64,000 bases of DNA from Pseudoselenomonas ruminantium (GTDB taxonomy: Bacteria > Bacillota > Negativicutes > Selenomonadales > Selenomonadaceae). The translations under genes were made by a program, and so were the position numbers. The notes under the pieces are model-generated. The model worked only from the letters and a program-made list of their open reading frames with translations, was not told the DNA's origin and did no database searches. This document shows, in pieces, positions 13,515 to 16,829 of the stretch (within the stretch, counting starts at the first letter, position 1; every line of letters begins with the position of its first letter). Where the stretch lies: contig NZ_FNJQ01000004.1 in assembly GCF_900104055.1 (NCBI RefSeq), positions 62,001-126,000 on the forward strand. Direction: 5' to 3'.

Positions 13515-13562
13515 AACTATCCCTCCCTTGCTTTTTGCAAACAGGACAGTACCTCTACTTAA

Positions 13563-15896: not shown

Positions 15897-16058
15897 ATCT
15901 GTCACTCGCTTTCGTAAAATCTACATCCATTATACTATAAGGTCAATCGGATTAAAAATGATTGAGTTAAATTTGCAATAGACAGAAAACTTTATAAAAA
16001 GAAAAATTTTTTGCGTAAAGGGGTATATTTTTCCTTTATAGTATGATACAATATAATT

Positions 16059-16210
16059 GTCGATAGGGGAGAGGTTGGATATCCCACCAGCCCCTGCATA
16101 AAAACCTATCGGTCTCTTCTCTGGAAACATATCCCAGTTTCCAGTATCCCATTTCCTTACATCTTTTTAGAAAGAACCGGAGTCAGTGGAGTGATACCGG
16201 TTCTTTTGTT
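16059..16210 (+). ncRNA. Candidate small RNA with repeated UAUCCCA motifs
   Basis: No coding frame fills this stretch, but it has the layout of a small RNA gene. A -10 region (TACAAT at 16047-16052 or TATAAT at 16053-16057) comes first, though a good -35 is not visible. Hairpin 1 pairs TTGG/CCAG and AGGGG/CCCCT around loop ATATCCCA (16079-16086). Hairpin 2 is a perfect 8-bp stem, CTGGAAAC/GTTTCCAG, around the same loop ATATCCCA (16129-16136). A third TATCCCA at 16145-16151 is single-stranded, and a strong terminator follows. An alternative outer stem, CGATAGG/CCTATCG, spans hairpin 1. CCC loops shown several times are typical of sRNAs that pair with ribosome-binding sites, such as Listeria LhrC. 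That role is inference. Confidence 0.7.
16171..16210 (+). terminator. Terminator of the small RNA
   Basis: A perfect 10-bp stem, AAAGAACCGG/CCGGTTCTTT, has a 16-base loop and is followed by TGTTTTG. Confidence 0.88.
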
Positions 16211-16313: not shown

Positions 16314-16829
16314 TTGAAAGTAATCAATTTTTATGGCGGTGCCGGCATTGGCAAGAGCACGATTGCCGCAGATATTTTTTCCAAGCTGAAACGCAAAGGG
16401 CACAAGACGGAGCTGGTGGGGGAATATGCCAAGTGGCTCTGGTACCAGAACGCTACGGATATCGTGCAGGATCAGTTGTATCTCTTTGCCGAGCAGGTGC
16501 ATCGGCTGAAGACGCTGGAACGCTACGGCGTGGAGTATGCGATCTGCGATTCCCCGCTGCCGCTGAATATCATCTACAACAATACGCCGGATGAACTCTT
16601 TGACCAGCTGGTGATGCACGAGCATACCAAATTCGACAATGTGGAATACCTCCTGCGGCGCAATGATGAGTTCATCCGCATAGACGGGCGCAAGGAGACC
16701 AATCTGGAACGGGCCAAGGTGAAGGACGAGGAAATCAAGGCGGTTTTGGATGGGGCTGGCATAGGCTATACGGTCATATCCCCATGGGAAACCGATAAGG
16801 TATTGCTGGATCTGAAAATGAATGGATAA
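16314..16829 (+). CDS. Small P-loop ATPase/kinase-like protein (AAA_28-like)
   Basis: Nucleotide-binding protein of 171 residues. Walker A is FYGGAGIGKSTIA at residues 5-17. A hydrophobic strand ending in Asp (YAICDSPLPLNI) follows near residue 78. An arrangement of this kind occurs in NadR-type kinases and in phage AAA_28 proteins; the substrate is unknown. TTG 16314 is preferred because GAGGCG precedes it and it gives MKVINFYGGAG; the open frame extends upstream into the small-RNA terminator and is unlikely to be used. It is a single gene between the small RNA and prfC. Confidence 0.7.
   Translation: MKVINFYGGAGIGKSTIAADIFSKLKRKGHKTELVGEYAKWLWYQNATDIVQDQLYLFAEQVHRLKTLERYGVEYAICDSPLPLNIIYNNTPDELFDQLVMHEHTKFDNVEYLLRRNDEFIRIDGRKETNLERAKVKDEEIKAVLDGAGIGYTVISPWETDKVLLDLKMNG

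Follow-up and report, generated by a model that had tools for sequence, protein, structure and literature searches.

Introduction

The small RNA LhrC of Listeria monocytogenes carries three redundant UCCC motifs, all of which are able to bind a target, and in the excerpted account of this RNA the motifs displayed in loops count more than the one in single strand (PMC4132741). Flagellin mRNA is itself the partner of a small RNA in E. coli, in which FliX base-pairs with the fliC transcript and lowers fliC (PMC10578931). Flagellin synthesis is also subject to the CsrA-FliW-flagellin switch, which in B. subtilis (hag) and C. difficile (fliC) works on a leader with two GGA sites, one of them at the Shine-Dalgarno (SD) sequence (PMC8523840, PMC7652899). 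Joint action of FliW and small RNAs on CsrA activity is described as remaining to be determined in any species (PMC7652899).

Searches of the open-access literature, a body outside of which most subscription journals lie, listed no paper on a small RNA of Selenomonas, and among the papers listed for small RNAs in Selenomonas or Negativicutes and for small RNAs with flagellin mRNA none was seen to describe the RNA found here; nor does the word Selenomonas occur in two papers on structured RNAs. Selenomonas is a common rumen genus. The window, that is, the whole stretch of Pseudoselenomonas ruminantium DNA that was analysed, is 64,000 nucleotides long, and a sequence-only reading of it had claimed a small RNA gene at positions 16045-16210 in which the same octamer fills two hairpin loops and most of it recurs a third time. 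In the following, this gene, its predicted fold, its distribution and its candidate targets are described, and the RNA is compared with the systems introduced above.

Predicted gene and fold

The predicted transcript extends from position 16059 to position 16208 of the forward strand, on which all features of the RNA lie. We infer its transcription from an extended -10 element, TGaTACAAT (16044 to 16052), which was read by eye and has no clear -35 element, and from its position the 5' end was placed near GUCGAUAGG, seven nucleotides after the -10 at about 16059. A TGnTAnACT-like element occurs at the same spacing in relatives within the genus, and other sigma-A-type promoters occupy the same place in Mitsuokella and in G024, again as judged by eye. 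The 3' end lies within the T run of an intrinsic terminator (16171 to 16208) recognised from sequence, fold and covariation; the 10-bp terminator that had been said to end the gene corresponds to its outer stem in the fold (16171-16180 with 16197-16206). A simple promoter and terminator scan listed neither of these small RNA signals, both of which were identified by eye and by conservation.

The minimum free energy (MFE) structure of the small RNA, at -50.9 kcal/mol (z -3.71), is better than those of all 200 shuffles. In this structure the 5' arm of a closing helix, P1 (16060 to 16067), pairs with a 3' arm at 16105 to 16112 to give eight pairs, three of which are changed on both sides among relatives, and encloses hairpin H1 (16073 to 16092). 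H1 has a 6-bp stem (16073-16078 with 16087-16092), with changes on both sides at four of its six pairs, and displays motif 1 as the loop AUAUCCCA (16079 to 16086). Next comes a pyrimidine-rich linker, UCUCUUCU (16113 to 16120), which is identical in the genus and G024 and altered at its two ends in Mitsuokella, and then hairpin H2 (16121 to 16144), the stem of which is a perfect 8-bp helix (16121-16128 with 16137-16144; three of eight pairs changed on both sides) and the loop of which, AUAUCCCA again, forms motif 2 (16129 to 16136). Both octamers are thus hairpin loops in the fold, as had been claimed, and re-reading of the sequence confirmed ATATCCCA at 16079-16086 and 16129-16136 and TATCCCA at 16145. 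Helix P1 and the extended -10 element had been absent from the sequence-only reading.

The loops are kept in related genomes. In the alignment A3, which has 22 rows, every H1 loop has an AUCC core, the Mitsuokella loops in this set being taken from individual folds. The H2 loop contains UAUCCCA in all 19 rows of the genus, whereas the two rows from Mitsuokella have AAUCCC and that of G024 has UUACCC. Downstream of H2, site 3, UAUCCCAUUUCCUUACAUCUUUUUA (16145 to 16169), combines motif 3 with an anti-flagellin stretch and is distinguished by its invariance and by complementarity to the flagellin leader. The description of its UAUCCCA as single-stranded applies to most of the motif, but its initial bases are paired to the RNA's 5' end in the MFE structure, while being unpaired there in the centroid structure.

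A fixed loop is not needed by terminators, and a GGA in a hexaloop is a known form of CsrA site. The terminator hexaloop of this RNA, GUGGAG (16186 to 16191), may be such a site. The surrounding terminator loop region (16182-16195) reads CAGUGGARUG in every row of A3 except G015, across three genera.

Distribution and conservation

In a DNA search of 60 genomes, the region was found in 21 of the 22 genomes of the genus (the Selenomonas ruminantium group) and partly in one other; the sole genus genome with no match, G006, is 68% complete. The covariance search that had been suggested as a check was carried out with a model, R1, which recovered the RNA in 24 of 189 family genomes: the 21 of the genus and, among the 167 others, two Mitsuokella (G061 and G062) and one Selenomonas-like genome (G024). 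When R1 was applied to 380 class genomes the same 24 were returned, all of them Selenomonas-Mitsuokella relatives, under filters that are stricter at such a size and may miss remote copies. An exact 19-mer scan of named genomes gave 23 stretches, 21 of which belong to Selenomonas or Mitsuokella, and placed G061 and G062 with uncultured Mitsuokella and G024 with uncultured Selenomonas. R1 was run on 18 of these 23 loci. The RNA is carried by HD4, a laboratory strain of Selenomonas ruminantium. The two exact 19-mers outside Selenomonadaceae, in Fervidicella (no R1 match at E 1) and in an uncultured Bacteroidetes (R1 E 0.083), were taken as chance. G060, the third genome of the genus Mitsuokella, gave no match to R1 or to a second model, R2, and the three weak matches obtained with R2 at relaxed settings in 39 chosen family genomes (E 0.45-0.87) were taken as noise. 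Within site 3, ATCCCATTTCCTTACATCTTT is present with zero mismatches in all 24 RNA-bearing genomes. Near-copies of site 3 with two or three mismatches occur at 13 places outside the three genera, and none of the eight examined has the fold or the terminator of the RNA.

LhrC, RsaE/RoxS, RNAIII, SprD and FsrA all have families in Rfam, and the folds of RsaE, RNAIII, SprD and FsrA differ from that of the RNA described here. The 64 kb of the window contained no Rfam family at gathering score, and 451 bases searched up to E 5 gave three matches far below the cut-offs; neither LhrC nor RsaE/RoxS was matched in either search. In a set of 17 distinct sequences, changes on both sides are seen at 13 of the 33 pairs, with all five helices represented, and 98.0% of cells are paired, versus 93.9% in shuffles and 27-47% in slid versions. 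None of 500 shuffles reached four of the five covariation measures, and eight reached the fifth (further pair types), so that compensatory changes support the predicted helices. On these comparisons, the predicted RNA, seen to date only in relatives of Selenomonas and Mitsuokella, represents a new family of small RNAs whose working type is already known.

Flagellin leader as predicted chief target

A single long target was considered and rejected. The 16-nt complement of site 3, with wobble pairs and one mismatch allowed, has 74 matches in the 22 genus genomes, 21 of which are the RNA gene itself, and because the remaining 53 are no more than the 65 matches of a reversed control, long targets are not numerous. 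One of these matches, in G004, falls within a flagellin 5' leader, and for this reason flagellin homologues were collected across the genus; that of the window genome has Flagellin_N and Flagellin_C domains (Pfam). The gene encodes a flagellin of about 300 residues, and its 5' leader contains a block to which the invariant strand AUCCC-AUUU-CCUUAC of the RNA is complementary. The block lies 23-58 nt 5' of the start codon, upstream of the SD. It reads AAGGAAAUGGGAUU or a near form in 11 genomes, including that of the window, UAAGGUUUUGGGA or UAAGGUCUUGGGA in six other genus genomes that form a second clade, and GUAAGGUUUAAAGGGAUUU and GUAAGGUUUUUAGGGAUUU in G014 and G015. With the first 11 leaders aligned on GGGATT, which is invariant by construction, no other run within 30 nt is fully invariant except the upstream AGGA. 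In Mitsuokella, the leader of G062 contains GATGTAAGGATTTTCAGGGAT, a block with which none of 387 gene starts compares in duplex energy, and G061 has a similar one.

The block co-occurs with the RNA. Of the 22 flagellin leaders that come from RNA-bearing genomes, 20 have the pattern AAGG.{3,8}GGGA, as against none of the nine closest from RNA-less genomes and six of the 387 gene starts; these counts are not independent trials, since the pattern was defined after the leaders had been seen and the genomes are related. The two leaders that miss it are those of G003, which retains AGGAAATGGGAT, and of G024, in which both the RNA and the flagellin are present. Neither 16 further flagellin loci of RNA-less genomes nor 14 other, mostly larger flagellins of RNA-bearing genomes have the pattern; these totals cover the 60 flagellin loci that were fetched rather than every flagellin matched. 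The nine RNA-less flagellins are the nearest (E below 1e-29) from 15 genomes searched, and the background of 387 gene starts was drawn from 20 stretches of G010 and from the window, with starts picked by script. In G007 and G021, both of which possess the RNA, the best matches to the flagellin belong solely to the larger and more distant type.

Duplex energies with site 3 differ between groups of leaders. The 11 first-clade leaders are equalled or bettered by 0, 0, 2, 2, 2, 2, 2, 6, 6, 16 and 45 of the 387 starts. For seven other genus leaders 16-132 starts are as good, for G015 48, for G024, which has no block, 24, and for the nine closest RNA-less flagellins 41-318. In the second genus clade (six genomes) and in G014 and G015, the match consists of two short blocks around mismatches. 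Measured against shuffled leaders, z was lower with the RNA than without it (21 versus 9 leaders, G061 being omitted; Mann-Whitney p 0.005, uncorrected for kinship). Taken singly, eight genus leaders and that of G024 are unremarkable (z +0.6 to -2.3 in the second clade and G014/G015), and G063, which is without the RNA, has a z of -2.03. The second-clade leaders L181-L183 and L186-L187 begin with a strong 5'-end hairpin, which the first-clade leaders do not have.

A two-strand fold of the RNA with the G000 leader places site 3 in a 13-bp helix and leaves H1, H2 and P1 in place, at -87.2 kcal/mol versus -50.5 and -11.3 kcal/mol for the two strands alone. Folding of 21 leaders with the block covered gave no consistent trend in SD exposure. 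Because site 3 is invariant, a compensatory change between RNA and target cannot be demonstrated. A conserved seed complementary to the flagellin leader is found, with a strong match in one clade and in Mitsuokella, a weak one in the other clade and none in G024, and flagellin mRNA is probably the chief conserved target of the predicted RNA.

Other candidate targets

The 22 genus genomes together contain the exact 12-mer AGGAAATGGGAT at 36 places. The RNA gene accounts for 21 of these, and the other 15 comprise four flagellin leaders (G000, G003, G004 and G017), five leaders of genes with a Sigma70_r2 domain (Pfam) and six of something else. No start among the 387 scores as well as the Sigma70_r2 leaders, which belong to G001, G002, G012, G018 and G021. 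Their match lies 8-19 nt before the presumed ATG in G002 and G012, at about the same distance in G001 and further upstream in G018 and G021. Of the loci concerned (L230, L234, L237, L153 and L154), L230 and L234 are on contigs of 3.5-3.6 kb, possibly plasmids. Nor is the 12-mer rare in the rest of the family, most of the places examined there being inside genes; 30 loci in other genera include one that is the RNA of G061 and none that matches the flagellin of about 300 residues, and 11 more were judged by reading frame only.

Within the window, the sequence-only reading had proposed as target a 92-aa gene on the reverse strand. The GGGATA on which this proposal was based is indeed in the ribosome site (13518 to 13523, reverse strand), but three of the four orthologues have GGGATT instead, and the duplex score of the gene is ordinary, with 88 of the 387 gene starts doing as well when site 3, and not the loops, is scored. 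The gene is conserved, and the encoded protein has no Pfam match. In the leader of this gene (13515-13560, reverse strand), ACUGUCC or ACUAUCC can pair with the gene's own GGGAGGGAU ribosome site, an arrangement that the window shares with four relatives and that is perhaps a control hairpin of its own. Better targets than the 92-aa gene lie outside the window. The broader suggestion, that ribosome-binding sites are covered by the RNA, agrees with three of the sigma-like genes but not with flagellin, in which the site is 23-58 nt upstream of the start codon. The ribosome site of dxr (G000, G010 and G011), to which five of 387 starts are equal, is a minor candidate, and a receptor-like gene of G018 and G019 matched nothing in Pfam with the first 140 residues of its product.

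Alternative explanations

The triple repeat is by itself unusual, though not unique: TATCCCA was found three times in none of 5000 dinucleotide shuffles, whereas 42 of the 5000 had some 7-mer three times, as did 19 of 770 stretches of 166 bases across the 64 kb. The last of these counts would accommodate a chance structure without function, a reading to which next to no probability is assigned given the near-identity of the RNA across the genus, its compensatory changes and its retention in two further genera at other places; the case rests on this conservation. More has to be said about the P-loop ATPase gene (AAA_28, Pfam PF13521) that lies outside the element at 16314 to 16829 of the forward strand, with a start codon of our choosing, because service of the region solely as the 5' leader of that gene, whether as riboswitch or attenuator, had been named beforehand as an outcome that would overturn the claim of a small RNA. 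The ATPase gene begins 105 nt downstream of the RNA in the window and is within 1.5 kb of it at three of 22 loci. In other species, however, the next gene is unrelated and sometimes oppositely oriented, the genes 3' of the RNA including an RF3-type gene, uvrB (G024) and rimP (Mitsuokella) besides the ATPase (Pfam), so that the RNA is not always upstream of one gene; moreover, a terminator separates it from the ATPase gene, and its promoters vary between genera while the RNA itself is kept. On its other side, hypF (Pfam) adjoins the RNA within 1.5 kb in 16 of 21 genus loci. A nifH-like gene replaces hypF upstream at L087, L093, L095 and L099, which represent three species of the genus and G024 (Pfam for one). 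Because the downstream genes vary by species and the promoters by genus, the predicted small RNA is a stand-alone gene of about 150 nt, and use as an ATPase leader, the residual probability of which we put as very slight, is ruled out by the neighbourhood comparison. Conservation, covariation and changing neighbours thus bear out the gene claimed at 16045-16210, which has the features of a trans-acting small RNA, namely its own promoter (by inspection and conservation), an intrinsic terminator and independence of its neighbours.

What such a gene does allows of two further readings. A titrating RNA, the AUCCCA loops or GUGGAG loop of which would sequester an RNA-binding protein in the way that CsrB sequesters CsrA, could explain why an identical motif is present in two hairpin loops and once more, and why the GUGGAG region is kept, in all A3 rows but one, beyond the needs of a terminator; CsrA is moreover encoded in all 22 genus genomes, mostly in two copies (two CsrA-family genes in 17 of 22). 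This reading is considered unlikely. The repeated motif is C-rich and devoid of GGA, and a single GGA is looped, in the terminator, in contrast to the repeated GGA ascribed to CsrB in the excerpted literature; the repeated GGA motifs in loops or single strands that mark CsrB and RsmZ sponges are accordingly not found. The invariant single strand and the flagellin-leader match, for their part, require no protein. We know of no bacterial protein for AUCCCA loops. Somewhat less improbable, if still doubtful, is that the RNA does act by base-pairing but that flagellin is not its real target, the block being kept for CsrA or for another reason and the match being a by-product. The AAGGA and GGGA of the block are GGA motifs placed about like the two CsrA sites described for the B. 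subtilis hag leader (PMC8523840), and the matches in the second clade are weak. Genera without the RNA, however, keep their flagellins but not the block (none of nine closest and 16 other leaders), the AAGG half persists in the second clade as AAGGU, which contains no GGA, and Mitsuokella has a 10-nt match of its own, GATGTAAGGA.

Proposed mechanism and relation to CsrA

On balance, it is considered rather probable that the RNA is a trans-acting, base-pairing RNA of about 150 nt with three motifs, of which the flagellin leader would be the chief target and, in one clade, a Sigma70_r2 gene the second. The multi-site translational regulator of the sequence-only reading is accordingly retained, as what is likely a multi-site base-pairing RNA that works like LhrC and keeps its loops. 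In the proposed mechanism, the three AUCCC(A) motifs, two in loops and one in single strand, would make the first contact with GGGAU on target mRNAs, the loops perhaps acting in the manner shown for LhrC (PMC4132741), after which the invariant single strand AUCCCAUUUCCUUAC would zip up with the target. The main pairing site would be AAGG-N(3-8)-GGGA(U) in the flagellin leader, 23-58 nt before the start codon, and the Sigma70_r2 gene of one clade would be paired as well, in its leader or at its ribosome site; in three genomes, the RNA would block the SD region of the sigma-like gene.

The pairing block in the flagellin leader overlaps CsrA-type GGA motifs, and by masking this CsrA-type site upstream of the SD, the RNA would tune flagellin synthesis beside FliW-CsrA. 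Masking of a CsrA site is the leading guess because the position of the site, 5' of the SD, is like that in hag, GGA motifs are contained in the block and CsrA is present. Granted base-pairing, relief of CsrA repression is given about half of the weight and direct repression of flagellin a little less, with a small rest for other outcomes. At the one locus examined for gene order, in G019, fliW is directly upstream of csrA (Pfam). The CsrA-family genes of G000 are at G000:C29:34516 and G000:C55:6541, one being strong and the other weaker and elsewhere. A bolder version, possible although we would not expect it, is that the RNA joins the CsrA-FliW switch itself, pairing at the upstream CsrA site and displacing CsrA or being delivered by it through contact with GUGGAG, while the same seed shuts off the sigma-like factor. 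If this were true, one RNA would link motility with another programme.

The small RNA probably helps to set the amount of flagellum that is built. Should the link with flagellin hold, a base-pairing RNA would be added to flagellin control in bacteria with CsrA and FliW, and because the predicted contact is short and exact, it is directly testable.

Comparison with known systems

In its working type, and in that alone, the RNA resembles LhrC, in that three UCCC motifs are distributed over loops and single strand in both, with two of them in loops and the other in the unpaired stretch that separates hairpins. As far as LhrC is covered by the excerpted account (PMC4132741), the two differ in the position of one motif, the third being in the terminator loop of LhrC whereas here it is the second hairpin that presents a motif in its loop; in the contact made with the target, LhrC covering the SD of lapB while the main site predicted here is upstream of the flagellin SD; and in gene number, with five copies of LhrC versus one place per genome. 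A UCCC motif is also the target-binding seed of RsaE, RNAIII, SprD and FsrA in low-GC Gram-positive bacteria (PMC4132741), as is proposed for this RNA.

With FliX, the RNA would share a flagellin mRNA as base-pairing partner. FliX, however, originates from the 3' end of fliC and pairs with coding sequence, whereas the RNA described here has its own predicted promoter and matches a 5' leader (PMC10578931, as excerpted). The CsrA-FliW-flagellin switch is approached in another respect, since the genomes considered here likewise encode CsrA and, in G019, a fliW-csrA pair. No base-pairing RNA component appears in the excerpted accounts of that switch (PMC8523840, PMC7652899), and it is such a component that the predicted RNA would contribute.
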